From Zychaea mexicana (taxonomy: Eukaryota; Mucoromycota; Mucoromycetes; Mucorales; Lichtheimiaceae), in NCBI RefSeq assembly GCF_025766255.1, contig NW_026516673.1, positions 558,001-622,000 of the forward strand: a DNA stretch of 64,000 nt. Direction: 5' to 3'. A model generated the notes under the pieces. The model searched no databases. It was not told the DNA's origin and was given only the letters and a program-made list of their open reading frames with translations. Both the position numbers and the translations under genes were made by a program. Each line of letters opens with the position of its first letter. Position 1 is the stretch's first letter. Shown here piece by piece: positions 1 through 52,395 of this stretch.

Positions 1-379
1 GACGACTTAATGGTGAATTGGGCCCTAAACCATCGTCGCCGATAGACCGCCAAACACTCCGAGTAGCGTCTTCATGAGCAACTGCAATGAATGCTTCGAG
101 TATGATTCCAAGAACAGTTGAAATGGCAATGGCGGTTGTATAGACGATCGTTTCTCTTGAGACTTTTACACGCGCCCACTAGGTAGAGTAGTTGTTTAAG
201 TCGGAATAAATGAACCGACCTATTCGGTTGCTGGATTTTTCTCTCGCTCTTTCTTTTTCTCCCCCTTTTTATTGGTTTACCGATAGTTGAAGGATACGGA
301 AAGCAAAGCTTGGTGTTTTATTATTGTCGGACAGCAGTTGTTCTTGGGGCCGTGATTGTGTTTCTTGACGTTTCGCCAT
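1..379 (-). CDS. 5' part of a membrane protein gene, truncated by the window edge
   Basis: Two minus-strand exons are visible. Exon 1 (379-281) begins with ATG and encodes 33 hydrophilic residues. A GTAAAC donor follows and the intron (280-179) ends in CTAG. Exon 2 (178-1) continues in the same phase and stays open to the window edge. It encodes a hydrophobic stretch (TIVYTTAIAISTVLGIILEA) that looks like a transmembrane segment, followed by an acidic, Gly/Pro-containing loop. The gene lies divergently from the histidine kinase, with about 1.4 kb between the two start codons. I do not recognise the family from this short N-terminus. The splice model rests on consensus motifs and uninterrupted phase only, so the gene itself is moderately supported and its product is unknown. 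Confidence 0.45.
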
Positions 380-1774: not shown

Positions 1775-4700
1775 ATGAAACGCTCATTAGACGACAATCA
1801 TTCACACGACTCCAAGAAATTCTGTTCACCGACAGAGAGATCCCCTCAGCAGCAACAACAACAGCAATCTAATTCCGTCACCATGAGCGCCACCGTATTA
1901 GATTACGTGCGCGACATCATTCAGGATCTCGACCAACGTCATCTTGATCACTGCCTCAGCAAACAGCTTACTCGTGATACCCTAGGCAACTTGCAACCGG
2001 CTGATGCCGAGCTAGCCAGCACGTTGGATGCTGCATTGAAAAGAATAGCCCAGTATCAGCTGATGCTAGAAACAGATAACCTTAGATACCGCATCGCGAT
2101 ACAACAGCAGTATCAGCTGCTGACGGGTGCTCAAGGCGATGATGACAAGAACGCATCTGCAGTATCAAAAAACAATTTGAACAACACCACCCGTAACAAT
2201 AACGATCAACAGCAATCACCGACGCCTACTACCACAACTACATCAAAACCCGCTACGACTAAATCCGATCAGGAACCAGATCATGCCGATAATAACAACA
2301 CGACCGCTGCTACTGCTACTACGAAGAAAGTTGCCATGACACCCGAAGATGGCATTTCCACCATCAGAGACTCGTCGTTGCTTGAGAAAATGCAACCCCA
2401 CAACCGAAGCCCCATGCTCTCTATGCCAACTGCCACTACGCCTACCGGCTATTTTTGTAAATATTTCAAAAATATTTTCTGTAACAACGTTTTGCCAAGG
2501 GAGAGGAGGAGTGAGAAAAGACCGCGGGATGTTTTTATTAATAAGAGAATTCCTGTTGTTGCTGTTGTTGTTGTTTTTGTGTGTATAAACACATTACGAA
2601 CATGACCGTGTGTTGCTGTTGTTGTTGTAGCTGTCACGACCCACTCTGCCTCCGGAACGCCTCCTGCTGGTGCCTCACTGACACCATCGCCCTCCATGAC
2701 ACCGCCCTTTGGAATTGCCGCCTCAACCTCAAACGCATATCCTGTGTTTTTTGGAACACTCTCGTCGCCTCCGCTCATGTCTTTCCCAGCTGCTACCGTT
2801 CAAACAAGCGCCGATAACATTGTCTGTCCCGACTGCGTTGTGCAGGCTGTCAAAGTTGCCTCCAATGTCTTTGCCGGCAAATTGGACCAGCGTATCACCT
2901 GCAACCACGAACGCTGTGTCTCTGGCCCTGTTCACCCGTCATCGCCCATCAACATGCTCAAGGAGGCTGTCAACGCCATGACCGACCGTCTGCAGCGCCT
3001 AGCAGATGAGGCCATGTACGTCTCGCACGAAACTGCCGTCAAAGGAAAACTCGGAGTTCAAGCACGCTGCGACCGCGAAATGAAAGGCGTCTGGCGTGAT
3101 TTTATCCTCAATCTCAACAGCATGACCCGTAGCCATCTCGAACAAGTCCGTGATATTGCTGATGTCTCCACCGCCATTGCCCGCGGTGATCTCAGCAAAG
3201 CCATGACTGTGCCTGTCAAGGGTGAGACGCTTTTATTGAAAAACACATTTAATACTATGGGTAAGTATAAAAAAGCTGCCAGTGAAGCTGAAGAGAAAAA
3301 GTTTATTTTAGCTTCGTAACACTAACTTTTCTTAACTTCCAAAAAAAGTCAACCAACTTAATCTTTTTGCATCCGAAGTGTCTCGTGTGGCACACGACGT
3401 CGGTACCGAAGGTCGCTTAGGCGCTCAAGCAACCGTTGCTGGCGCTGATGGCATCTGGAAAGAGCTCACGGACAATGTCAACACGATGGCAGCCAATCTT
3501 ACGAACCAGGTGCGGGACATTGCACAGGTCTCGAAATCTGTCGCACGTGGTGACTTGACCGAGAAAGTTACGGTTGAAGTCAAGGGCGAAATGCTGGATT
3601 TGAAAAACACAATTAATACCATGGTCGACCAGGTATGGCAACTCTTCTGCTTGCTCAACAAAAAAAAAAAGTGCCGCAAACACGTGTGTGCTTAATATGA
3701 GGGCGGTTGTTTAATAATCGCCGTCATTTCTCTGTCCCTTTGCATGTATGCATTACACATTACAGTTATCTACCTTTGCAACTGAGGTTACGCGTGTGTC
3801 ACTTGAAGTGGGCACAGATGGCAAACTGGGTGGTCAAGCCATCGTCAAGGATGTGGCTGGTACCTGGAAGGACTTGACAGACAATGTCAACATGATGGCC
3901 TTTAAGATCACCGGCCAGGTGCGTGATATTGCCGCAGTCGCCAAGGCCGTAGCAAAGGGTGACTTGAGCAAAAAAGTTACTGCGAATGCCCAAGGAGAAG
4001 TGCTCGAACTCAAGGACACAATGAATAAAATGGTTGACCAACTGACTCTGTTTTCGGCTGAAGTCAGGCGTGTGTCGCTCGAAGTCGGCGTCGAGGGTAA
4101 GCTTGGCGGACAAGCTGTCGTCAAGGATGTGGGCGGTGCTTGGAAAGATCTGACAGATAATGTGAATACCATGGCTGCCAATCTGACCACCCAAGTGCGA
4201 TCCATTGCTGGAGTGACCAAGGCCGTTGCGATGGGCGACTTGAGCAAAAAGATTGAAGTGCAAGCACACGGTGAGATCCTGGACTTGAAAAACACCGTGA
4301 ACGACATGGTGGACCAGCTTAGCGTCTTTTCGACTGAAGTGACGCGTGTTGCACGCGAAGTCGGCACCGATGGTAAACTCGGCGGCCAAGCACATGTACC
4401 CAATGTGGGTGGTACCTGGAAGGATTTGACCGATAATGTCAATACTATGACAACCAACCTGACTACACACGTACGAAGTATTGCCGTGGTTACCAAAGCT
4501 GTTGCCAACGGCGATCTCAGCAAAAAGGTCATGGTCAACGTCAGCGGCGAAATCTCTGATCTCAAGGACACTGTTAACAACATGGTGGATCAATTGCGTG
4601 TGTTTGCATCAGAAGTAACGCGTGTGGCCCGTGAAGTCGGCACTGAAGGCAAACTCGGCGGTGAGGCTATCGTTCCAAGCGTCAGCGGCACATGGAAAGA

Positions 4701-7700
4701 TCTGACCGACAACGTCAATGTGATGGCCGCCAACTTGACAACCCAAGTACGATCCATTGCCCAGGTAACAAAAGCCGTTGCCAAGGGCGATTTGTCGAAA
4801 AAGATTGACGTCGAAACACGGGGTGAAATTTTGGATCTTAAAAACACGGTCAATAGTATGGTGGATCAACTGAACGTATTTGCTGCCGAAGTCACACGTG
4901 TCGCCAAGGAAGTGGGCACGGATGGCAAATTAGGTGGCCAGGCCATGGTGCCCAATGTCGACGGAACTTGGATGGACCTCACTGATAATGTCAATCAGAT
5001 GGCCACCAACTTGACAACCCAGGTGCGGTCCATTGCCGAAGTCACCAAGTCAGTGGCAAACGGCGATCTTAGCAAGAAAATTGAAGTCGCGAGTGGCGGC
5101 GAGATCCTAGAGCTAAAAAATATTGTCAACAACATGGTGGACCAACTTCGTATATTTGCATCCGAGGTCACGCGTGTCTCTAAGGAAGTCGGCACAGAAG
5201 GAAAGCTGGGCGGTCAAGCCGTTGTGCAAGGTGTGGCTGGTACATGGCATGAGCTCACGGCTAACGTCAACATCATGGCAGCCAACCTGACGAACCAAGT
5301 ACGGTCCATCGCTGAAGTGACTAAAGCCGTGGCATTGGGTGATTTGAGCAAGAAGATTGAAGTCGAAAGTGGCGGCGAGGTGCTCGAACTCAAGAATATT
5401 GTCAATAACATGGTCGACCAGCTGCGTATATTCGCCTCTGAGGTAACGCGTGTATCTAAAGAGGTCGGCACTGAAGGCAAGCTTGGTGGTCAGGCTGTTG
5501 TTCAAGGCGTAGCCGGCACTTGGCATGAACTTACAGACAACGTCAATATCATGGCTGCCAACCTCACGAACCAAGTGCGATCGATTGCCGAAGTGACCAA
5601 GGCCGTAGCGTTGGGTGATCTCAGCAAGAAAATCGACGTTGAGAGTGGAGGGGAGATTCTTGAACTCAAGGATATCGTCAACAACATGGTTGATCAACTG
5701 CGTATTTTCGCATCCGAGGTTACGCGTGTCTCCAAGGAAGTAGGCACGGATGGCAAATTGGGTGGCCAGGCCATGGTGCCCAATGTCGACGGTACATGGA
5801 TGGAACTGACGAACAATGTCAATATCATGGCTGCCAATCTTACGAATCAAGTACGCTCCATTGCCGAGGTGACCAAGGCTGTCGCTTTAGGTGATCTTAG
5901 TAAAAAAATTGAGGTCGAAAGTGGTGGAGAAATACTGGAGCTCAAGAACATTGTCAACAACATGGTCGACCAGTTACGAATTTTTGCATCCGAGGTGACG
6001 CGTGTCTCCAAAGAGGTCGGCACAGAGGGAAAACTAGGCGGCCAAGCGGTTGTACAAGGCGTTGCAGGAACATGGAATGAACTCACGGACAATGTAAATA
6101 TCATGGCGGCCAATTTAACCACCCAGGTACGATCCATCGCAGAAGTTACCAAAGCTGTCGCCAGCGGTGATCTCAGCAAAAAGATCGAAGTCGAAACTCG
6201 AGGCGAGATCTTGGACTTGAAGAACATTGTGAACGACATGGTGGATCAGTTACGTGTCTTTGCATCTGAAGTTACACGTGTTGCGCGCGAGGTCGGCACC
6301 GAAGGCAAGCTCGGCGGTCAAGCTGTAGTGTATGGCGTGGCTGGCACCTGGATGGACTTGACGGTCAATGTGAATACCATGGCAGCCAATTTGACGACCC
6401 AAGTGCGATCGATTGCTCAAGTCACCAAAGCAGTTGCTCGCGGCGACTTGTCAGAAAAAATTGATGTTGAAACTCGAGGCGAGATCTTGGACCTTAAAAA
6501 CACAGTGAACAACATGGTGGACCAATTGCGCGTTTTTGCTTCTGAAGTCACGCGTGTATCCAAAGAAGTCGGCACTGAAGGCAAACTTGGTGGGCAAGCT
6601 GTGGTACAAGGTGTCGCAGGCACATGGAAGGACTTGACAGATAATGTCAACTTGATGGCAAGTAATTTGACAACACAAGTACGGTCCATTGCCCAGGTCA
6701 CGAAAGCTGTCGCGTTGGGTGATCTCAGCAAGAAAATTGACGTTGAGAGTGGAGGAGAGATTCTTGAGCTCAAGGATATCGTCAACAATATGGTGGATCA
6801 ACTGCGTATTTTCGCATCTGAGGTCACGCGTGTCTCGAAGGAAGTAGGCACGGATGGCAAACTAGGGGGCCAAGCAGTGGTACAAGGTGTAGCCGGCACT
6901 TGGTACGAACTCACAAATAACGTCAACATCATGGCCGCAAATCTTACAAATCAAGTACGGTCCATTGCTGAAGTGACCAAGGCTGTTGCTCTAGGTGACT
7001 TGAGTAAAAAGATTGAAGTTGAGAGTGGTGGAGAAATCCTGGAGCTCAAGAATATCGTCAACAACATGGTCGACCAGTTACGAATTTTTGCATCCGAAGT
7101 CACGCGTGTCTCTAAGGAAGTCGGCACGGATGGCAAATTGGGTGGCCAGGCCAGGGTGCCCAATGTTGACGGTACATGGATGGAACTGACGAACAATGTC
7201 AATATCATGGCTGCCAATCTTACGAATCAAGTACGGTCTATTGCCGAGGTGACCAAGGCCGTAGCGTTGGGTGACCTGAGCAAGAAGATCGAGGTGGAAA
7301 GTGGCGGTGAGATTTTGGAACTCAAAGACATCGTCAACAACATGGTGGACCAACTCCGTATTTTTGCATCCGAGGTCACGCGTGTCTCCAAAGAAGTCGG
7401 CACAGAAGGAAAGTTAGGAGGCCAAGCTGTCGTGCAAGGCGTGGCTGGTACTTGGTACGAACTGACGAACAATGTAAACATCATGGCCGCAAATCTTACC
7501 AATCAAGTACGGTCTATTGCCGAGGTGACCAAGGCCGTAGCGTTGGGTGATCTTAGCAAAAAGATTGAAGTCGAAAGTGGTGGCGAGATCCTGGAGCTCA
7601 AAAACATTGTCAATAACATGGTCGACCAACTACGTATATTTGCGTCAGAAGTAACGCGAGTGTCCAAAGAAGTCGGTACTGAAGGCAGGCTCGGCGGACA

Positions 7701-10605
7701 AGCTATTGTCCAAGGTGTTGCTGGTACATGGAACGAACTGACAGATAATGTCAATATCATGGCTGCCAATCTGACAAACCAAGTGCGGTCCATTGCCGAG
7801 GTGACCAAAGCTGTGGCAAACGGCGACTTGAGCAAGAAGATCCATGTTGAAGCACGCGGTGAAATTCTAGATCTCAAGAACACTGTCAATGACATGGTGG
7901 ATCAACTCAGCGTATTCTCAACCGAAGTAACGCGAGTGGCCAGAGAAGTCGGTACTGAAGGCAAATTGGGCGGTCAAGCCATTGTGCAAGGTGTCGCTGG
8001 CACATGGAAGGATCTGACGGACAATGTCAACATGATGGCCGGTAATCTAACAACTCAGGTGCGATCTATTGCTGCAGTTACTACGGCTGTTGCTAAGGGC
8101 GATTTGTCACGCAAAATCGTTGTAGAAGTACAAGGTGAAATCTTGGAGCTTAAGTAGGTTACTATGTTTTGTTTTGTGTGTGAAGGAGGTCGATCCACGT
8201 GTATGAAATGGATTACTAAGAACATTATCACGTCCAAATAGAGATACTGTGAACTCCATGGTAGATCAACTGCGAGTCTTTGCTGCAGAAGTTACGCGTG
8301 TCGCTAGAGAAGTCGGTACAGAAGGCATGTTGGGTGGACAAGCAGCGATCATAGGCGTCGACGGCACTTGGAAAGATTTGACCGATAACGTCAACTTGAT
8401 GGCCAGCAACTTGACGGATCAGCTTCGTGCCATCGCTGCAGTCTGTAAAGCCGTCGCTCAAGGTGACTTGTCCAAAAAAATTGAGGTCGAAGTGCACGGT
8501 GAAATTGCCGAGCTCAAGAACACAATCAACACCATGGTGGATCAGCTTAACTCGTTCGCGTTTGAAGTGACGCGTGTGGCACGCGAAGTCGGCACAGAAG
8601 GCAACCTTGGTGTCGAAGCACGTGTCAAGGGTGTCGGTGGTGTATGGCTCGAAATCACCAGCAATGTCAACACAATGGCCTCCAACTTGACCACGCAAGT
8701 ACGCGCGTTTGCCCAGATTTCCGCAGCTGCTGCTGAGAACGACTTTTCACGGATGATCACGGTTGAAGCACAAGGTGAAATGGACGCACTCAAGACCAAG
8801 ATTAACCAGATGGTAACCTCGTTGCGCGACGCGATTCGCAAGAACGGCCAAGCCAGAGAAGCGGCCGAATTGGCCAACCGCTCCAAAAGTGAGTTCCTGG
8901 CCAATATGAGCCACGAAATCCGTACGCCCATGAACGGTATCATTGGCATGACAGGCTTGACGCTGGAAACCGAGCTGACGCGACAACAGCGTGAAAATCT
9001 CATGATCGTGTCAAGTTTGGCAAACACGCTGCTCACCATTATTGACGCGATTCTCGATATCTCCAAAATTGAAGCGGGTCGAATGACGGTAGAAACGATT
9101 CCGTTCTCACTCCGGTCGGCTATATTTAGCGTGCTCAAGACTTTGGCAGTCAAGGCTAACCAAAAGAAGCTGGATCTGATTAACAACGTGGACAAGGCTA
9201 TCCCTGACCAGCTTATCGGCGATCCGCTCCGCCTTCGCCAAGTAATTACCAATCTCATCGGTAATGCCGTCAAATTTACGACAGAGGGTGAGGTGGCACT
9301 CGAGACCAAAGTGGTGGAAATGGAGGGCGATTACGTAAAGCTTCAATTATGCGTTAGTGACACGGGTATTGGTATACACGAGGACAAGTTGCACATTATT
9401 TTCGATACGTTCTGCCAAGCAGACGGCAGTACCACGTAAGTTTAAGTGTCACTAAAGTTGATGAACTTAAACCTGTATTGGCAAAAGAATGAATCTAATT
9501 GAAACTGATGTATAGGCGAGAATATGGTGGCACTGGCCTCGGCTTATCTATTTCCAAACATCTGGTGGAACTTATGGGCGGCGATCTATGGGTGGAATCC
9601 ATGTATGGCCGAGGCTCACAATTCTACTTTACCATCAAGCTGCGTCGCATAGGTGTGAGTGACAAGGAAGCGATAGGCAAAATGGCGCGGTACCAAGGAC
9701 GACGCATTCTCTACGTAGACAGCATGAAAGACAACACGGGTGTGATTCGAAAGATCGAGCAGCTCGGATTGACGGCTTTCCGTGTCGGTAGCATCGAGGA
9801 AGCCACTGAACTTGCCAACAAGTATTCAAACCGAAGCAAGGTCGCGCCATTCTTTGACACGGTTGTTATCGACAAGATGACTCAAGCAGAAAAGGTCCGC
9901 GAAATCATGCCGTTACGTTATACCCCCCTTGTCCTCATTGCTCCCGAAATCCACATGCTCAACATGAAGCTGTGCATCGACCTTGGCATTACAGCATACA
10001 TTAATTCACCACGCAACCTTGCAGAGCTTATGGATGCACTATCACCAGCGCTCGAAAGTCATGCCGCGTTACCGAGCGACTCTGGCAAAATCCAACCTCT
10101 CCAGATCCTCATTGCCGAAGATAATGTGGTCAACCAAAAGCTCGCCCTGCGTATTCTGCAAAAGTTTGGCCACGATGTCAAGATTGTATCAAATGGCAAA
10201 CTTGCGGTCGAGGCATTCGAGAGCCAGCGGTTCGATATGATCTTCATGGACGTGCAGATGCCTGTTATGGGTGGATTTGAAGCGACACAAAGTATACGAC
10301 GTATCGAAAGCGAATCTGGTACCGATGCGCGTATCCCAATTATTGCCTTGACGGCACACGCCATGATTGGTGATAGAGAGAAATGTCTGGATGCGGGAAT
10401 GGTACGATCATAAAAAAAATAGTACAGCGATACACGTCCATCTCATTTTCTACTGTGCTAATTATCTATTTTCTCTGCTTTCGTTTATTTTCAGGATGAA
10501 TATGTCACCAAACCATTGCGCATGCCCGAGTTGATAGCAGCAATCAAAAAATTTGCACCGTATTCTGCACATGTCATTACAGATTCACCTCACCAGCAGC
10601 AATAA
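1775..10605 (+). CDS. Group III hybrid histidine kinase with 20 HAMP-type repeats
   Basis: This is a Nik1/Os-1-type hybrid sensor kinase, which in fungi feeds the HOG osmotic-stress pathway through a phosphorelay and is the family targeted by phenylpyrrole and dicarboximide fungicides. Seven exons (1775-2456, 2631-3260, 3349-3632, 3766-8153, 8242-9435, 9516-10401, 10495-10605) join in phase to 2724 aa. The N-terminus has a poly-Gln run and an Asn/Thr-rich linker. Residues from about 335 to 2185 form the HAMP-type array. The H-box ([12 protein letters not shown]) puts the phospho-accepting His at about residue 2219. N ([10 protein letters not shown]), G1 (DTGIGI) and G2 ([10 protein letters not shown]) boxes follow. 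A receiver domain ([18 protein letters not shown]) has its phospho-Asp at about 2638. No transmembrane segment is seen, so it is probably cytosolic. Family members usually carry roughly five to nine HAMP units, so this one is exceptionally long. The ATG at 1775 is the first in frame. Confidence 0.95.
2954..8812 (+). repeat. Array of 20 tandem 276-bp HAMP-coding units
   Basis: Twenty successive units of about 92 codons are readable: one in exon 2, one in exon 3, sixteen in exon 4 (the last crossing into exon 5) and two in exon 5. Each has the pattern MVDQL..FA.EVTRV, then EVGT(D/E)GKLGGQA, TW..LT.NVN.MA.NLT, QVRSIA.VTKAV, and GDLSKKI.V...GEI..LK..VN. The outer units are more divergent. The inner units (about 5.1-7.7 kb) are nearly identical to one another at the DNA level over long stretches, indicating recent internal duplication or gene conversion. 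Confidence 0.93.
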
Positions 10606-14907: not shown

Positions 14908-17421
14908 ATGTTGAGACTCTTGCAATCTACCTCGTCCGCGGCAGTACGTATAGCTGATCTAGAGCTGTCTTCTTTTGTGCTTGGAAATGCCTTAGTAACA
15001 CTTGTAACTAAATTCCTGTTATCTCTATTTTGATAGTCGCGCGCTGCCAGTACGTCGTCATATACTGCTTTCCGTTTTTTCGCATTTGACAGCATCCTAC
15101 TCTAGAATCATACTAACACGCTATACCTTTAGGCTCCTCAACTGGCCGTATGGCTATCCGTGGTCTTCACCAGTCCAAGCCCGCAATGCAGGTCATGGCC
15201 ACTAACCCTCTTCGTGCACAGGAAGCCACTGTAAGCGCTGCCATTCCTTTTGAGCAGAGTATGACGCGTACTGTCAAAATATAAATATTCAAAACATGAA
15301 TTGCTTTTTCCTCTCTGTTATAGGGCTCTATTGCTAGCAAGTACCCCGTGATCGATCACGAATATGACGCTGTTGTTGTGGGGGCTGGTGGTGCTGGTCT
15401 CCGTGCAGCTTTCGGTCTTGCCGAAGCTGGTTTCAACACGGCATGTATCACCAAGCTCTTCCCCACGCGTTCCCACACTGTTGCTGCTCAGGTAACGAAA
15501 ACGAAAGAACATGTGATAGGCAGGAAGAGGGGGAGAAGGGGGAAAAAGGTACACAAGCTCGTGGTGGTGGTGATATGATCAATTAACGTCGTGTTTGTCT
15601 AAAATGCATAGGGTGGTATCAACGCAGCTTTGGGCAACATGACCGAGGACGACTGGAGATGGCACATGTACGATACTGTCAAGGGTTCGGATTGGCTTGG
15701 TGACCAGGATGCTATTCACTACATGTGTCGTGAGGCTCCTCACACTGTCATTGAATTGGAACACTATGGTGTGCCTTTCTCCCGTACTGAAGAGGGTAAG
15801 ATCTACCAGCGTGCTTTCGGTGGTCAGAGTTTGAAGTACGGTAAGGGCGGTCAGGCCTACCGTTGCGCCGCCGTCGCTGATCGTACCGGTCACGCCATTC
15901 TTCACACCTTGTACGGCCAGTCGTTGCGCCACAACACCAACTACTTTATCGAATACTTTGCCCTGGACTTGATCATGGAAGATGGTGAGTGCAAGGGTGT
16001 CGTCGCTCTCAACATGGAAGACGGTACCATCCATCGTTTCCGCTCGCACAAGACCGTCTTGGCCACCGGCGGTTACGGTCGTGCCTACTTCTCGTGTACC
16101 TCTGCCCACACCTGTACTGGTGACGGTAACGCCATGGTGGCCCGTGCTGGTCTTCCTCTCCAGGATCTTGAATTCGTACAGTTCCATCCTACTGGTATCT
16201 ACGGTGCCGGTTGTTTGATCACTGAAGGTTCGCGTGGTGAAGGTGGTATCTTGATCAACTCTGCTGGTGAGCGTTTCATGGAGCGTTATGCCCCTACTGC
16301 CAAGGATTTGGCTTCGCGTGATGTCGTCTCGCGTGCCATGACCGTCGAAATCAAGGAAGGCCGTGGTGTTGGTGAGGATAAGGATCACATCTTCTTGCAG
16401 TTGCACCACTTGCCTGCTGAAGTCTTGAAGGAGCGTCTGCCGGGTATTTCCGAAACCGCCGCCATTTTTGCTGGTGTTGATGTCACCAAGGAGCCCATCC
16501 CTGTGTTGCCTACTGTCCACTACAACATGGGTGGTATCCCTACCCGCTACACTGGTGAGGTTATCAAGGTCAACGAGAAGGGTGAAGATGAGGTTGTCCC
16601 TGGCCTCTATGCTGCTGGTGAGGCTGCCTCCGTCTCTGTCCACGGTGCTAACCGTCTCGGTGCCAATTCGCTCTTGGATATCGTTGTCTTTGGCCGTGCT
16701 GTTGCCCATCACGTCGCCGAGACCTTGGAGCCCGGCACCCCCTTGAAGCCTTTCGCTGCTGATGCTGGTGCTGACACCATTGCCAACTTGGACAAGTTGA
16801 GAAATTCCGACGGTAACAAGACCACTGCTGAGATTCGTTTGGCTATGCAGAAGACCATGCAGGCTGATGCCGCTGTCTTCCGTACCCAGGAGACTTTGGA
16901 TCAAGGTATGCAATTTTGCTTCGTATATCATTTGCATGGATGTCAGACAGGGCGTTTATCCATGGTACTAACTCTATGGGACTTGGTAATTATAACTACT
17001 AGGTGTTGTGAAGATCGACCAGGTCTGGAAGTCGTTCGCCGACGTCAAGGTCACTGACCGTGGCATGATCTGGAACACTGATTTGACCGAGACTCTTGAA
17101 TTGCAAAATCTGTTGACTTGTGCCTCACAAACCATGCACTCTGCTGCTGTCCGCACTGAATCCCGCGGTGCTCACGCCCGTGATGACACTCCTGACGTAA
17201 GACATGTCCCTTTGTTTTTAATTCATACGAGGAGGTCTGTTTAACTAACTTAAATATTGACTTATATTCCTTAGCGTGATGATGAAAACTGGATGAAGCA
17301 TACCCTCTCATGGCAAGACCAGGAAACCGGTGAAGTTAAGCTTAGCTACCGTGCTGTCGAAGCTAACACCCTCGATGAGAGCGAGTGCAAGCCCGTTCCA
17401 CCATTCGCTCGTGTTTACTAA
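14908..17421 (+). CDS. SDH1: Succinate dehydrogenase flavoprotein subunit, mitochondrial
   Basis: This is the catalytic FAD subunit of respiratory complex II, oxidising succinate to fumarate in the mitochondrial matrix. Seven exons (14908-14943, 15037-15049, 15133-15230, 15324-15491, 15612-16905, 17003-17196, 17275-17421) join in phase to 649 aa, the usual family length. The N-terminus ([16 protein letters not shown], then RGLHQS) is a typical Ser/Arg-rich mitochondrial targeting peptide. It is split by a 13-nt second exon. The FAD-binding dinucleotide fold ([13 protein letters not shown]), the flavinylation segment ([11 protein letters not shown]), HPTG, the RGEGG loop and the C-terminal HTLSW region are all present. 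The protein looks intact and functional. It should work with SDH2-4, which are not in the window. Confidence 0.97.
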
Positions 17422-21792: not shown

Positions 21793-22051
21793 GATTGCCG
21801 AGTGTCGATTGCCGAGAGTCGATTGCCGAGAGTCGAATGCCAGAGAGTCGAATGCCGAGAGTCGAATGCCGAGCGTCGATTGTCGAGAGTCGAATGCCGA
21901 GAGTCGAATACCAGAGAGTCGAATGCCAGAGAGACGAATGCCAGAGAGACGATCGCCAGACAGTCGATTGCCGAGCGTCGATTGCCGAAAGTCGTTTGCC
22001 GAGAGTCGAATGCCAGATAGACGATCGCCAGACAGTCGAGTCCTAGGAGTC
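21793..22051. repeat. Minisatellite, about 18 units of 14-15 bp
   Basis: Degenerate tandem copies of GATTGCCGAGAGTC / GAATGCCAGAGAGTC run for about 260 bp. Units of 14 and 15 bp are intermixed, so the reading frame changes along the array. The Arg/Ser/Glu-rich open frames across it are therefore by-products of the repeat, not evidence of a protein. Confidence 0.85.
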
Positions 22052-22314
22052 GAACGCGATTTACAGTGGCACCTGGCTCCTCATTGCGACCCCCACCATG
22101 GCAGACCAGACCAGACCAGCAGACAAGGCATCCAACCGAAAGGACACTACCATATTTCTATGGCGAGAAACCGAAAAGGATTTCTCCGTCCTCTGATCTC
22201 GCCTGAAGATCGGTTGTGGCCAACACCGTTGAACGCCAGACTGGACAGCCCAAAGCAGGGACCGGTTGTAGGCAGCCAGAGTCCACGGGAAAAAGGCTGA
22301 GACCAGGACCGACA

Positions 22315-30259: not shown

Positions 30260-32117
30260 TCATGATGATTGTAAATAATCGTTAATCAGTTCTGGGGATT
30301 CTTCAAGCACCACCATCATGCCCTGTAGCATATGAGGACTGTTATGGCAATGCAATAACCAGACGCCAGGATTATCCTAGAGAACAAATACTTTTAGTGA
30401 CCCAGACCTCTCAACTGATCGTCCACAGTAAACTTACAGCTAGTATCCGTATTTTAGACCATCCGCAACCCACAGGTTCTGTTGCTAATGTCCCATTCAC
30501 TATGTCATCGTCTGGATCAATGCCTGGATATCCTAATGTGACATCCTTTTGGATGGGATGCGGGTTATTGCGTATATCACTATGCTCAAACTCGTCATAT
30601 TCTCCTAGCCCATGAGCAATTTCCCAATGCGAGTGGCCATGTGTATGCCATGGATGGCTACGACAAGGTTCGCCCTAACAATGATCATGACAGTGAGTTT
30701 AAACAGTGACACAATCAGACAAATATTTTCTTACCGGTATATGGGTGCTCTGCAACACAAAATCGACGATTTCATAGTGATACAACGGATAAGTTGCCAA
30801 ATAAGGATCGTACCCGTTATGAAAAGTGTTCGCCGACATTATGGGTCGTTGTCGTTTGATTTGAAGGATGTCCATAAGAATTGGCCGCTCAGGCTCAGTA
30901 TAGGCGATACCATTGATGAACCAGCGTCTTTCGCCTGTAGGAAATATCATATCCGTTGCCCGGAGCTTGATCGTGCGAGATGCAGGTCTGTTGACCACAG
31001 GATCCACCCCATACAATGGTTCGAGTTCGGACCAAATCCAATGAGTAGAGTCCGCAAGCGGGAAATAGGGCTTATTAGGCGGTAGTTTGAAAACAGGTGC
31101 TTTGTCGTTATTGTTATCGTTACTGATGTGGCTGGTAGTAGTACTAGTAGCGTCATGTTCGCTATTGTATCGCAGGATACCCATACCGTTTGAGCCTCGA
31201 CTGACGTCTTCAGCCCATCGACGATTCGTGGCCATCGTATAGTCGCCCACGGGCTGGACAGCATGGAGTAGAACAGAAAAGCGCTGGCCAGGAGTGACTT
31301 CGAGAAAAGGAACCGAGTACGGCTTCACACGCTCACCATCGACTTCGATAATAGTTAGGTTATGATGTGCAATTCCAAACCCCAGCGTGCGAAAGGTTGA
31401 AGCGCCAATGACACGCAGCCGATACGTTTTCCCCCGATCGACCTCCAAGAGTGTGTAACCACCACAGACATCTTTGTTCTGTGGAGAAGGGCGGTCGGTG
31501 TTGTACAAGGTTCTGCCATTGATCAAGACGCTCTGTGCCTCGGGAATGAATTCAAATTCTGGACCGAGAAAATACTCTTCAAGCGCTGTGCGACTGGCAT
31601 GCCACCATTCGCTGAGGCTGATTATGTGCTCTGGATATTTTTCCGACAATTGTTCTTGCTTTGAGTGTATGATGAACGGTCCAAACAGGGTCTGCTCCTG
31701 CAGTCCTACGTGGGCATGATAAAAGTACGTTCCTACTTGGTTGACAACGTGGAAATAGTGGGTGAATTCGGCGCCTGGTGGGATGGGCTGCTGTGTCAGG
31801 AAAGGCACGCCGTCGGAATGTGCTGAGCTGTATTGACGGATTCCATGAAAGTGGACGGTCACGTCGTTCATTCCTGCGCCTGTTATGTTGGAAGGCGTAG
31901 ACCGCGGTAGAAAATTGCGCACAGTGACTTGGACGCGCTCACCCTCTTCCACTTCAAGGACAGGCCCAGGCAGTTGGTGGTTGGCGACTAGCGCATAGCC
32001 TGCATAATCGGAGCAGTCAGGGTTGATCTGGTCGAGAGTGATGTTCAGATCAAAGCGTTTGAGAGCCGCTGCTAGATCAAGAGCTACTAGCAACAGCAAC
32101 AATAAGATGGATCGCAT
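30260..32117 (-). CDS. Secreted multicopper oxidase (laccase / ascorbate-oxidase type)
   Basis: It probably oxidises phenols or related substrates with reduction of O2 to water, outside the cell or in the cell wall. Three minus-strand exons (32117-30735, 30674-30438, 30376-30260) join in phase to 578 aa, normal for the family. Residues 1-18 (MRSILLLLLLVALDLAAA) form a clear signal peptide. All four copper-binding segments are present: HFHG near residue 90, YHAH near 132, HPWHTHGH early in exon 2, and HCHNSPHMLQGM in exon 3. The residue ten positions after the type 1 Cys is Met, as in ascorbate oxidase and low-potential laccases. Several N-x-S/T sequons are present. It is transcribed divergently from the bZIP gene. 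The exact substrate cannot be decided from sequence. Confidence 0.93.
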
Positions 32118-33091
32118 CTTTGTCCTCCTCTATAGAGTGTCAACTAATAAAGGTTAATGGAATGAGAAAGAGAGAAAGAAAGAAAGAGAGAGGAGGAGAA
32201 AGAAGACGTCTTACATTCATTCAGCGTTCTTCCTACCTTCACATAGTGGTGTCATGTAACGTAAACACCATACGCGTTCAATTGTAAAGACGACAAGGTG
32301 AACCTCTTCTGTTTTAAGATTTGTTGTCGCGTCGTTCTCATGTCGCACGGGAACCTAAATATGCAGATTTGACCGTCTGCTTCAGCCCTTTCAACTTTTT
32401 TTTTTTGTTGCTTGGCTCTTTTCGTTCTCTCACACACTCTCATTGTTCTCGCTTTCGACTCAATCCTGGGTAAATTAATACGATCTGAAACCTCGCAATT
32501 TGCCCAGCGCAGGTTGCTTCCGCTAGCAGTTTGGACTAGCAGGTTGAGAAAACATCCGGACGGTTGGTGAGAGAGAATCTGTGATTTAACGCCACCACGC
32601 TAGGTGTGTGGCAAGAAAAAAGCTTTGCTTTGTTATTCAAAGAGGTAAGAACAACAAATAAAAAGACTAAAGGGTCATCGTTTTAGCAAGCGGGCATAAG
32701 ATTTGCCAAAGTGTAAAGTAAGCACATTTCCATAAATGGTAACGTGGATCATCTTCTGAGGTCATCTCCCCAACATCATTTGTGCCCGCCTGCGACGGTG
32801 GGAAAATTGCTTACACATGGCGGGCGGAGAGGAAGCAGCCCCAAGAGCATCAGGTACGGACCAATAGCCCACGACGCCCCCGCATTTCGGAGAAGAAGAG
32901 ATGGAAAAAGATGCGAGCGGTTACACAGAGAAACTCCACTAAATAGCGCTCTCCTCACAAATATAGAAAACGAATAAACGTCTGAGAGTATATAAAACTG
33001 TGTCCTCAAATTTAGCTCTCGGCTCGCCTTCTTCTTTTTCCCCACATCTTCCTTTTTTTTCTATTATATTTTCTGCGGTTTACAAGAAAGA
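32118..33091. promoter_or_regulatory. Divergent promoter region between the multicopper oxidase and bZIP genes
   Basis: A 974-bp region separates two start codons facing outward. It has GA/CT-rich tracts near 32163-32210, a poly-T run near 32397-32406 and pyrimidine-rich sequence just before the bZIP ATG. No individual binding site can be defended. Confidence 0.5.
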
Positions 33092-34953
33092 ATGTCTCCC
33101 GAAAGTCCAATGCCCAGCAACGATGAGCTGGCTACCGCTCTTCTACAACCGTCCTCCCCTGAGGATTACAGCGACAGCAACGACATAGCATCTCCACCAT
33201 CACAACAACCGTCGCTAGGGCAACAGCAGCCACAGTCACAGCAACCTGTCAAAGTCAGAAAGAAACCTGGCCGCAAACCCAATCCAGCATCACCTGCCCT
33301 ACGCAAAGCCCAGAACCGTGCTGCACAACGTGCCTTCCGCGAACGTAAAGAGCGCCATCTGCGAGAACTCGAGACGGCCGTCAAGCAGATTCGGGAGCAG
33401 CGCGACAAACTGCAGGCCGAGAACGAGCAGTTCAGACAAGACTCGGACATCCTGCGCTCCGAGAACTGGTACCTGAAGGGCATTGTCTTGACGCTCCAGC
33501 TCGTCTGCTTCCGCCACAACCTGGTCATCCCATCGCACTCGCCCTACATGAACGAAGAGGCCTTGTCGCTGCTGGCTCAGTCGATTCCAGAACCCATTGC
33601 GGCGTATCTGAGCGCCAATGCCAACAACAAGCTTCCCATCCCATCGCGTCTCTTTGACTATTCTCCCAGCAAGCCGCGCGACCGGTATCTTTCACAAGGT
33701 TCATTATTCGTCACAAAGGATGGTATTTCTAACCAGGCGCCGACCGAATTTGAGAATTTTCCCAGTGTCACTTCGAATAGCAGCAGCAGCAGTAGCAGGA
33801 GCAGCAGCAGCAGCCACACGGACGATTTGGCGTCCGAATTACCAGCCTTATCGCCAGTGTCTGAAGATGAGGTGCCGCTGCCATCGCCTCCAGCGGCGCT
33901 TGAAGAACCAATCACATCCAATCTTGCGGCTATTCAGATCTTGCGTCTGCGCCTACGCTTGCAATCCGCCTGTGCACAGATGGACTCGACACCCTTTGCC
34001 ATTCAACCGACTGTACTACAGGTAAGAGAGCTAAAAAGAGAGAAAAAGGCCATCTTCTTTTCAGAAGAAAAGGAACGGGAAAAAGGCGTATGGGATTGCT
34101 AATAAGCTTTTGTCTTGTTATATAGCTCACAATTCCCCACGATCCACGTATTGACCTCATCCCCACGCCTCATATGCGTGACCGCATGATCCTGTTCCGC
34201 GACCTCTTTGATCTAGACGACTGTTTCCGCTGCTTGATCGGTAACTCGGTATTCCATGGTGGTGACCCTGCACTGGCATCCAACTGGCAGCTTCCCCCGG
34301 AGTTCTTTGACAAGTTCTGGTTCTTGACGATCGATTTCTCGTTGCAGCGCACAACGAATCGATGGAGAAGACTGCAAGGTCTGAAGGAACTGCAGCCGAG
34401 CGACGAAAAGCGAGAAATGCCACCTGCCATTGCAGCTGCTCTTGCCAATATGCCACAACTCTCCTCTGCATTGAACTCGTTTCCTCCACCAGCATCGTTG
34501 AACAGAAACAGCAGCAACACCCATAGCAACAGCAACAGCCGAAACAACAACAACAACAACCATAACTATGCATCATCACTAGCATCAGACACATCCTCAA
34601 GCGGAGAGAGCGACAGCACCATGTTCTTCGCGTCACCAGTACAGCTCACGAATGGATACATGCCCACATCACAGCCACAAGACAAGGACACTGACTTTCT
34701 GATGGACACGTCCACTTGTCATCCATGGGACACCATGCTGTCGCCTTCCGAAAACGACTATGGTACGTACTCTCAACGCGATGGATAAAAAAGGAGTGGG
34801 GATGTTACGAGAGAGCGGGTTGGAAGCACGAGGCATTGTGTGTGCGTGTGTGTTGTACGAGTATTTGTTTACTGATTCGTAATACCCTTGCTTTTATTAC
34901 CACGCATATTAGACATGATCATGGACAGTCTTATCGACTCGGATAAATCATAG
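33092..34953 (+). CDS. Yap/AP-1-like bZIP transcription factor with C-terminal DUF3425-like domain
   Basis: A nuclear DNA-binding regulator. Three exons (33092-34021, 34126-34762, 34913-34953) join in phase to 535 aa. The basic region at residues 71-90 has the fungal Yap/AP-1 signature N-x-x-A-Q-x-x-F-R (NRAAQRAFRERKERHLREL), followed by leucine-zipper heptads to about residue 130. Ser-rich and acidic low-complexity sequence lies in the middle. Exon 2 begins with a segment typical of bZIP proteins carrying DUF3425 (DLIPTPHMRDRMILFRDLFD, HGGDPA..NWQLPPEFF, KFWFLT), then Asn/Ser-rich tails. Yap1-type Cys-rich redox domains are not evident, so an oxidative-stress role should not be assumed. Short frames on the other strand are shadows. 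Confidence 0.93.
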
Positions 34954-35441: not shown

Positions 35442-37920
35442 TTATACTTGCAGACGACTCAAAAGAGCCTGCTCCTCGGTAAGTTCATGTCTGCTTAAAC
35501 GTGGTATCCTTCTCTCGGAAATGGCAATGTTGTATGCTTGCAAATAGTCGTGCACAGGTCCTTGCTGCTGCCCGCGATCCCACCCTAGTGCAAATGCACT
35601 TCGAATCATCCGTAAGATAAACTCTTCCCTTCGAACCTTGCTCTCCTTGTTGCGCCGATAATCTTCAGCAGCATCCTCAATCGCCTTGCCCAGTGTTGCT
35701 GGCTCAAACAGGTACGCATTGTAATTCTCCTTGCTCGTCACGATAGGCGCGTTGGTGTGCTTGTCGCGCGTCACATGAACCTTGTTGCGCGCTCCATCCA
35801 CAGGTCGATCAATCAAAAATTCCTTTAATCCACCCGCTCCAGTTGATATCACAGGCGAGCCAAACAGCAAGCCCTCGGCAGCCACCAGTCCAAAACTCTC
35901 GGTGAGACTAGGCACGAACGCAAAATCGGCCGCAGCACGATAATACACAGACCACTGACGTTGTTGCTGAGCCGTTGACATGACAATGACGTTGTCTGGA
36001 TACCGTTCCTGAAGCGCCTTGACCCACTCCAAGGGGTAATTGTTCCGCTGTCCAATGATGACAAACTTCATGTTGTGTTTCACAAAATATTGCACTGCCG
36101 TCTCAAATATCTCCAAGCCCTTGTTGTACTGGAATCGACCCACGAACAAAACCACAGGTCGATCCAAATCTTCTTTACTGAGCCGATTGCGTCGGATCAG
36201 GTATTTTTTAGCCCGGTCCTTGGCCGACATGACATACTCTTTGGTCGTGGGTGCCAGGTGCCATACTGTGCGCTCGTCCGTCAGCGTCTTGGTCTGCTGC
36301 TGGATCAGTGCTCGACCAAACTCGGGGAAATCTGACTTGCGCTGGATCAGTCGAGGATGCGTGAACGGATTCAGCGTACCGAAATCGACGCCATTGGTAA
36401 TGCCAAAGAACCGGCCTCGTTCTGCTTTCCGCAGTATGCTTTGCATGACCAGCTCTTTGAGATAAAAATCGTCGCGTCCTTCTACTATATCTTTTGCCAT
36501 GGCCCCGCTCACAAACGTCACCACGTCCGCGTAATCTATACCCATACTCGACATGAACACCCGGTTGCCACGCATGTACTTGTTGATCATTTCGTCCGGC
36601 TCGTTCATGAACTTTTTCACATTGTTCCATGTATTCGTATACTGCAATTCGTCAAGGTAGTCGTGCATCGTATACATGATCACCGGGGGCCGCGGTCCCA
36701 ATTGATTGCGTCGCTGGAAGTCTTTGAGATGCTTTGCGATATACGCGTTCGTAGCACCATGGATATGAACCACATCCACGTGGCGAGTAACTCGTGCTGG
36801 TGCAAACAACGGTACTTCGTCTGGCGATGCTGCCTGGTGCACCAGGAATTCTGCAACTGCCTTGTCAAAATACTGATCCTTCCATTCCTGTGGTAATCCC
36901 GGTGGACAAGAGTAGATATCCAACGTCTTGCGGGCCCGGAAGGCTAGGTTGAACGGCTTGCGATTGCCAGGGCCAATCAGATACACAGGCACCTGTTCTG
37001 TCAGCGGTAATTGTTTGGCTTGATCCATTACTGATAGCGTCGAATTCGCTGCGTTGGCTGAAATAGTGGCTGCTGTTTCGGAATCAATAATATGAATCAT
37101 TCGCCAGACTCTGAATTCCATTGGTATTAAACGGCCGTTTTTGTCGCGGACGTCGATAACGAGATCGATAACCTTTTCGGGACGATGCTTGTTCTTAAGG
37201 AACGAGTAGTATGGCATCACAACGGCGGAACGCACCAATCCCGACCGCTGCTGTGCAGAGGCGAGTGCAGTGACAATCATGCCCATGCCGCCCATGGATG
37301 CACTGCCGAATTCCTTGGTGACGTGATATACGGTCGTGCCTCGTGTGATTGGCGTTGCAAGCGCGTGTTCTTGCAATGGTTGGTATCGCACGGCGGGGTA
37401 TTGTCGCAGAGCTGTTGAAAATTATTATGTGCATACGTGATTTCGTGTGTATAATAAAGTATAATCGTATGTAATAAAGCGTATTGGCGTGTGTGTGGGT
37501 GAGTACAAGACAGAAGCATGAGAAGGGTGTCTAATGTTCCACAAAATCTTTTTTACCTATGCGGATCGGTGGAGGTTGTCTGTGTAGTAAAGCGCCGCCC
37601 ACGAACACCGCTGCCAGCTGTATCAGCCCTAGGGCCAGGATAAGCAGACATAGTACGTTCCACCACCGCCACCGTCGGCAGTAGCGTGCAAAGAAATTGT
37701 GAATGCGTCCACTATTGCTGCCCTTTTCGTTGTATGAAAGTGGTAGTCGATGGTTGGAGAAATGTCGTCGCTGCCATGCTGGAGTTGATTTCGTGGTATA
37801 GGTTGCTGTAGCTGAAGAAGGGGCGAAAGGACCCGCCCCTCCTGAACCGGAGCGACGGTACGTAGGTGCGGTCATGTTGAAGGTTTTGGCGTCGACGTTA
37901 TTTGGCGGCGGAGGCGCCAT
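35442..37920 (-). CDS. Membrane-anchored glycosyltransferase of the starch/glycogen synthase (GT5-like) type
   Basis: It likely transfers glucose from a nucleotide sugar to an alpha-glucan or other acceptor at a membrane. Two minus-strand exons (37920-37557 and 37411-35442) join in phase to 777 aa. The N-terminal 85 residues are basic and Pro/Ser-rich. A single transmembrane helix follows at about 87-112 (NVLCLLILALGLIQLAAVFV), suggesting type II topology. The catalytic part starts with a synthase-like N-terminal fold (VTKEFGSASMGGMGMIVTAL, compare KTGGLGDV). It ends with a GT-B C-terminal fold (VLFVGRFQYNKGLEIFE, VPSLTESFGLVAAEGLLFGS) containing the expected E-x7-E arrangement. Classic fungal glycogen synthase (Gsy) is GT3 and soluble, so this is a different enzyme. 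The acceptor and compartment are unknown. Confidence 0.88.
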
Positions 37921-49733: not shown

Positions 49734-51402
<1,669 letters not shown>

Positions 51403-51583
51403 GTTGCTAGGGTGAGTGTCAACAAAGTGTCCCAAACCCAAGAGCGGGGCTTTTTTTTTTCTCTTCACGGTTCGCCTCGCCTGTGTTTCACAGGATCCTT
51501 GCCCTTTTACTTTCACACACTTTTTTTTTCCGCGTATTCTTTCGTCTTCTTTTTCTTCTTCTTCTTCTTCACAATTCCTGATT
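51403..51583. promoter_or_regulatory. Compact bidirectional promoter between mitochondrial PheRS and DERA
   Basis: Only 181 bp separate the two start codons, so both 5' UTRs and core promoters must share or overlap this stretch. It is T/TTC-rich toward the DERA ATG (a run of TTC units at about 51548-51570). No classical TATA box stands out. Confidence 0.65.
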
Positions 51584-52395
51584 ATGACCAAGATCAACGT
51601 TGAGACGCTTACCTATACTCAGCTCGCCAAGGTGTTTGATCACGCCATTTTGAAGCCTGAACAAACAACCAAGGACGTAGAGCAAGGCTGTAAGCTCGCA
51701 ATCAAATACGACGCCAAGTCCGTGTGTGTCAAACCGTGCGATGTCAAGCAGGCTGCCGACATTCTGAAAGGCTCGAGTGTTCTTGTTGGTACCGTCATTT
51801 CTTTCCCGCACGGCAACTCGCCTACTACAGCCAAGGTCGCCGAAGCTTTGCAGGCCGTAGAAGACGGTGCTATCGAGTTGGATGTTGTCATCAATATCGG
51901 TCACTTGAAATCGGGCCTCTACGACGAATGTCAAAAGGAACTCGAGGCTATTATCAAGACCTGCAAGGCCAAGCGATCCGATGTCATCTTTAAGATTATT
52001 TTCGAAAATGCTTATTTGTCAAAGGATGAAATTGTTCAGGCATGCAAGATTGCCGAGGCTGCTGGTGCAGAGTTTGTAAAGGTACAGATATCGGGTGTCG
52101 CAACCCGGGGGAGAGGGGGAGGGGAGAATACACTGTATATAGTTATTGGCCAACTCACGCATGCTTTGTGAATATGTGTATATAGACTTCCACTGGCTTT
52201 GCATCTTCGGGCGCCACCTACGATGACATTGAATTGATGCGTGCTAGCGTCTCGGATCATATCCAAGTCAAGGCATCCGGTGGCATCAAGAGCCTGGATC
52301 AAGTGATCACCTTCTTACAAAAGGGTGCCACACGATGCGGATCGTCTTCGACGGATAAGATCCTTGAAGAATTCAAGCAGAAGAACAGCGCATAA
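51584..52395 (+). CDS. Deoxyribose-phosphate aldolase
   Basis: Cleaves 2-deoxyribose-5-phosphate to glyceraldehyde-3-phosphate and acetaldehyde in deoxynucleoside catabolism, in the cytosol. Two exons (51584-52081 and 52186-52395) join in phase to 235 aa, the usual length. The TIM-barrel motifs are intact: FDHAILKPEQT, VCVKPCDV, GTVISFPHGNS, GAIELDVVINIGHLKSG with the catalytic Asp, and FKIIFENAYL. The Schiff-base Lys (AEFVK followed by TSTGF) is residue 166, encoded by the last codon before the intron. The second active-site Lys is in VKASGGIKS. Head-to-head with mitochondrial PheRS; no functional link between the two is expected. The function would correspond to bacterial DeoC. Confidence 0.95.

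Follow-up and report, generated by a model that had tools for sequence, protein, structure and literature searches.

The best-described relatives of the protein analysed here are the group III histidine kinases of fungi, among them CaNik1, DhNik1, TcsC, Drk1 and Bos1, in which HisKA, HATPase_c and receiver domains follow an array of HAMP repeats. As set out in PMC3848655, the studied members have five to six repeats; CaNik1 has nine HAMPs, its 92-residue repeats being concatenated HAMP pairs, and when all HAMPs were removed from CaNik1, Hog1 was activated in yeast. Phenylpyrrole fungicides are reported to need group III kinases for their action (PMC6433957). A third protein search, made with a Nik1-like bait and scoring longer arrays higher, named no ascomycete among the best 120 of 7996 matches, which were mainly long bacterial or early fungal arrays; for the number of five to six repeats we accordingly depend on PMC3848655. 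Bacterial hybrid kinases with long arrays (Myxococcus AskA/AskB type and others) share with our protein the 92-residue pair and an N-terminal cap HAMP. They differ from it in that most carry GAF families and, in the Ask kinases as described in PMC7643160, several receivers. The Aer2 poly-HAMP structures (PDB 3LNR, 4I44, 4I3M) are more distant, having only three HAMPs, belonging to a chemoreceptor and showing 11-12% sequence identity. The closest solved sequence is a presumably bacterial histidine kinase-Gcn4p fusion (PDB 9TRK, 9TRJ; E 1.3e-79), of which 272 residues align to a 370-residue stretch of our array and whose first HAMP, unlike the one described below, has no cysteines. Our literature search, which covered titles and the beginnings of abstracts and left most subscription papers outside, found no paper on the recent structure 9TRK and none that deals, for Mucorales, with the length of the array or with a cysteine cap. 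Early fungal kinases are drawn in PMC5285503, and these drawings may include long arrays.

The window, by which we mean the whole stretch of 64,000 nucleotides that was analysed, comes from Zychaea mexicana, a member of the Mucorales. It contains a gene for a poly-HAMP array followed by an intact hybrid kinase core (Table 1). All six introns are GT..AG, and the translated exons give 2724 residues with a single terminal stop, letter-identical to the deposited Zychaea mexicana protein P0007 (BDB00DRAFT_868740). The original prediction had called seven in-frame exons, a product of this length, an intact kinase core and a kinase of group III type, and all of this is borne out. The HisKA, HATPase_c and Response_reg domains were found together with SHEIRTP (residue 2218), NLIGNAVKF (2332), DTGIG (2368), GTGLGLS (2398) and MDVQMP (2637), which we take to be the H, N, G1 and G2 boxes and the receiver aspartate motif. 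The group III type is supported by the 92-residue HAMP repeats, HisKA, HATPase_c and one C-terminal receiver. The most hydrophobic 19-residue window (1.93) falls in the HisKA region at residue 2248 rather than in the N-terminal part; since nothing strongly hydrophobic lies outside the kinase core, the kinase is probably soluble. Pfam matches to a CovS-like HAMP, spectrin, a coronavirus stalk, HTH_6, YciZ, DUF1759 and MOM1 lack any stretch passing alone, and all but the first were dismissed as repeated-helix noise. Elsewhere in the window, a minisatellite with 14- and 28-base units (TGCCGAGAGTCGAA type) lies at 21793-22053.

Table 1. Features of the window, with positions counted from its first letter
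Feature	Position	Residues	Strand	Basis
Hybrid histidine kinase gene, group III (Nik1-type), 7 exons, 2724 aa	1775..10605		+	splice sites, translation; identical to P0007
Exons	1775-2456, 2631-3260, 3349-3632, 3766-8153, 8242-9435, 9516-10401, 10495-10605		+	splice sites, translation
Cap HAMP, C293-x2-C296-x21-C318 with H320/C323	2825..3010	293-354	+	motif, AlphaFold, PDB matches
Units 1-7, putative input-side zone, position-locked; introns 3261-3348 and 3633-3765 inside	3002..5154		+	same N-end index 25-50/51
Units 8-17, interior zone, number varies, many near-identical, interchangeable	5155..7914		+	same-index match rare
Units 18-20, putative output-side zone; intron 8154-8241 inside	7915..8830		+	same C-end index 23, 50, 44/51
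HisKA with SHEIRTP	8882..9079	2209-2274	+	PF00512 (Pfam)
HATPase_c; intron 9436-9515 inside	9218..9645	2321-2436	+	PF02518 (Pfam)
Receiver domain (Response_reg) with MDVQMP; intron 10402-10494 inside	10105..10548	2590-2706	+	PF00072 (Pfam)
FAD-binding flavoprotein	15612-17057			Pfam
Multicopper oxidase	30699-32129			Pfam
bZIP factor	32996-34102			Pfam
Glycosyltransferase with starch-synthase catalytic match	35442-37421			Pfam
Class II tRNA synthetase core (F type)	50378-51280			Pfam
DeoC/LacD aldolase	51416-52171			Pfam

The array runs from residue 352, where unit 1 starts, to residue 2191, where unit 20 ends, and all 19 spacings between unit anchors are exactly 92 residues. At the DNA level, TRF reports a 276-base array with a score of 2686 and 75% matches. 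The earlier count of 20 HAMP-type units is thus correct as to units, but each of them consists of two HAMPs. A HAMP domain count, which had been suggested as a check, gave 19 stretches of PF00672 (HAMP) and 19 of PF18947 (HAMP_2) in Pfam, and two profiles of our own, one for the front of the unit (b) and one for its back (a), gave 20 b-type and 20 a-type HAMPs, although these profiles were derived from the window protein itself and so favour recovery of its own pattern. Because each 92-residue unit comprises two HAMPs, the array is, judging from its sequence, one of about 40 HAMPs plus one cap. The DExG motif of canonical HAMPs was looked for across the array and found nowhere, as in the divergent poly-HAMPs that lack it according to PMC3570549.

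The same regularity holds for a set of 149 collected proteins, made up of the best 120 of 7999 scored matches and 29 new ones that a search seeded with the P0116 cap added. The a-to-a spacing is exactly 92 residues in 2354 of 2490 cases, and the type switches between a and b in 5075 of the 5092 steps from one HAMP to its neighbour. The remaining 136 spacings include values of 93 (30 cases) and 97 (16 cases), both of which are possibly real; the 7 alternation breaks inspected, out of 17, are all gaps of 71-72 residues. Array length thus appears to change nearly always in whole HAMP pairs. The 71-72-residue gaps occur in seven deposited proteins from six species (P0009, P0046, P0049, P0052, P0054, P0057 and P0058), two of these proteins coming from Radiomyces spectabilis. 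Such a gap looks like one left by an in-frame skip of 60-63 bases in the annotation, and in 7 of 7 proteins it stands before the third-last unit. The skipped bases of Zychaea contig 270 are open coding sequence in the DNA, reading GT...AG; their equivalent in the window gene is the unit 18 region, 7915-8278. The skip may reflect an error of gene prediction common to these proteins, or else an exitron that has been conserved.

How unusual an array of 20 units looks depends on the comparison. Raw a-type counts among the best 120 of 7999 matches range from 12 to 42, part of them including the cap, with the highest values in Kickxellales (32 in Coemansia and 42, over a 38-unit span, in Linderina); the presumed-bacterial long-array proteins among the matches listed have 14-17 a-type matches each. 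With the cap excluded, the 96 of the 149 proteins that have both the cap motif and an H-box contain 6-30 units: 12-26 in 77 of them, at least 18 in 58 and fewer than 12 in 17, these last being Glomeromycotina and Rhizopus models. Unit counts often differ within one genus. Arrays of 18 or more units occur in 25 of the 26 Mucorales genera of the named subset, in a search that favours long proteins. That search accepted only proteins of 0.55-1.75 times the query length and ranked long arrays first, and it therefore cannot show that short arrays are rare. On these sequence counts, long arrays are widespread in early-diverging fungi and 20 units are not exceptional for the Mucorales lineage. The original prediction had set the 20 units against a usual five to nine. 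That contrast stands with respect to the studied kinases, in which PMC3848655 gives five to six repeats, and is misleading for the lineage. The comparison with related species that it proposed yielded exactly 20 units in both Circinella minor and Dichotomocladium elegans.

Two paralogues are encoded in the same genome. The contig-270 copy has 19 units in its DNA, whereas its deposited model, P0046, has 18, one of them shortened; since this model omits a unit that the DNA contains, unit numbers taken from deposited models may fall short. The contig-263 copy (63001-73000) has about 10 units, nine by profile and one more divergent by eye. Its array is spread over more reading frames, with more introns by eye, and it has a cap-like start with C-x2-C and CPSCH. 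Could the 20 units of the window gene then themselves be an artefact of assembly or annotation, given that repeats are annotated so unreliably in P0046? We consider this very improbable, because two other species have the same number and no two unit copies are more than 88% identical in DNA, that is, all differ at 12% or more of their bases; moreover, the frame of exon 4 stays open through 15 whole units and two part-units. In a kinase-core tree of 86 sequences, 84 of them distinct (3 of the 89 chosen were left out for want of an H-box match), the window gene belongs to a clade of Mucorales sequences that has a support of 0.92 and is placed among poly-HAMP kinases of fungi. Those grouping with it include P0039, annotated NIK1; the tree contains neither a characterised Nik1 kinase nor a characterised ascomycete one. 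The contig-270 gene clusters with Circinella umbellata and Lichtheimia (support 1.0), and the position of this clade among Mucorales has a support of only 0.34.

We compared the units of the window protein with those of 51 proteins having at least 15 units (50 from Mucorales and one from Dimargaris) by reciprocal best match. Counted from the N-terminal end, the same index was matched in 50 of 51 proteins for unit 1, 48 each for units 2 and 3, 46 for unit 4, 32 for unit 5, 38 for unit 6 and 25 for unit 7. Counted from the C-terminal end, it was matched in 44 for unit 20, 50 for unit 19 and 23 for unit 18. Units 8-17 gave same-index matches in only 0-7 proteins from the N-terminal end and 0-6 from the C-terminal end. 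The two ends thus match unit by unit, whereas the interior units lack positional identity; since end units match by position and units 8-17 do not, it is the interior that carries the differences in length. Three of the six introns lie inside the array, in units 1, 2 and 18, and in both other Zychaea paralogues a profile match is interrupted at the position that corresponds to the break in unit 18.

This interior freedom, together with a range of 6-30 units that often varies within a genus, is what would be expected of a conventional group III kinase whose stalk is passive, with neutral drift in the number of units and importance for the ends alone. We regard this as a possible, if rather unlikely, explanation, and what speaks against it is the sequence of the interior units. 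These are up to 99% identical in protein, and many are 89-99% identical at a time when their synonymous sites are near saturation, which points to selection on the sequence, without implying selection on the number. Among the 190 unit pairs, dS is finite in 85, with a median dS of 1.91 and a median dN/dS of 0.10 for these. Adjacent units 8 and 9 are 96% identical in protein, their dS being past saturation, and the minimum over all pairs is 0.79 (units 10 and 15). On this ground we rejected the idea that the near-identical interior units arose by slippage or gene conversion in recent times. Synonymous sites are not fully random: in the 25 pairs that reach 89% protein identity or more, the same codon is used at identical residues in a fraction of 0.48, where codon usage leads one to expect 0.38, and the highest fraction in one unit pair is 0.64. 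Because protein sequences remain so alike while synonymous sites are near saturation, the unit copies are old, and their likeness has been kept by selection rather than by recent copying.

Ahead of unit 1 lies one extra HAMP, whose final residues overlap unit 1 as delimited here (from 3002) and which carries a C-x2-C-x21-C motif. This cysteine cap is present in 102 of the 149 proteins; prior to enrichment for it, the figure was 79 of 120. As to a possible zinc site of four Cys/His ligands, all 102 have the three cysteines at one spacing, and in 95 of them a histidine or cysteine follows within five residues of the third; 7 have neither. None of the 19 presumed-bacterial proteins with a cap HAMP has the cysteine motif in it. 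Ascomycota are not known to have the cysteine cap. For the studied group III kinases, the available text of PMC3848655 makes no mention of such a cap. An AlphaFold model of the cap and unit 1 (pLDDT 89.7) has 32-residue helices running continuously between HAMPs, and a Foldseek search with it returned Aer2 poly-HAMP structures as the top PDB matches. This last result bears on another reading, namely that the array serves mainly as a scaffold for binding or reach, holding DNA or partner proteins. Such a role has a precedent in vitro: myxobacterial AskA and AskB, both with extended poly-HAMP regions, bind promoter DNA, AskB in two assays and AskA in a pull-down but not in EMSA (PMC7643160). Our array, like theirs, has a weak Pfam overlap with HTH_6. 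Yet this match overlaps HAMP and has no stretch passing alone, and the structural search placed poly-HAMP folds first, so we find a scaffold function improbable. We propose the cap HAMP as a candidate input site and possible sensor of the kinase.

Taken together, these features lead us to a reading that we hold to be probable: the gene encodes a hybrid kinase of group III (Nik1-type) that is soluble and belongs to a HOG-type phosphorelay, its very long poly-HAMP array being of a sort found widely in its lineage and divided into an input end, a relay of pairs and an output end. In the dimer, four-helix bundles would stack into a rod whose length, when straight, would be about 0.1 micrometre (41 stacked HAMPs of 16 helix residues at 0.15 nm). 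This geometry rests on the cap model and Aer2, because three interior units gave a poor prediction (pLDDT 48), which was left out of the fold search. The N-terminal cysteine HAMP and units 1-7 would make up the input end, units 18-20 would grip the kinase as its output end, and the HAMP pairs of units 8-17, many of them near-identical, would relay the signal. Tandem HAMPs are described as taking alternating conformer states in work cited in PMC3570549. If neighbouring HAMPs adopt opposite conformers, the gain or loss of a whole pair would keep the sign of the signal, whereas that of a single HAMP would invert it. Length might thus change in 92-residue steps because whole pairs would keep the signal sign at the kinase. 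The resting array would lock the kinase in one state, and stress at the input end would flip the array and alter phosphate flow to the phosphotransfer protein. Since unit number ranges from 6 to 30, length itself may be nearly neutral. The suggestion in the original prediction that repeat number may tune sensitivity to osmotic stress or fungicide gains no support from the analyses made here.

A bolder version of this relay model, which we put forward tentatively and consider doubtful, extends it to the origin of the signal. Long arrays of early-diverging fungi might start with a dedicated sensory HAMP in which the C-x2-C-x21-C motif, with a nearby histidine or cysteine, either ligates a metal or is modified by thiol reagents or aldehydes that stress produces, and thereby flips the first HAMP of the rod. 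Fungi would have made this sensor from a cap HAMP that bacteria share, and the interior pairs would relay its state to the kinase with the sign unchanged.

The search for the input of group III kinases is a long-standing one, and to it the cysteine cap contributes a concrete candidate site that is open to point changes. The family as a whole may be viewed as a natural test of HAMP-chain signalling, comprising arrays of many lengths that are almost always made up of complete pairs, their ends being fixed and their interiors free.
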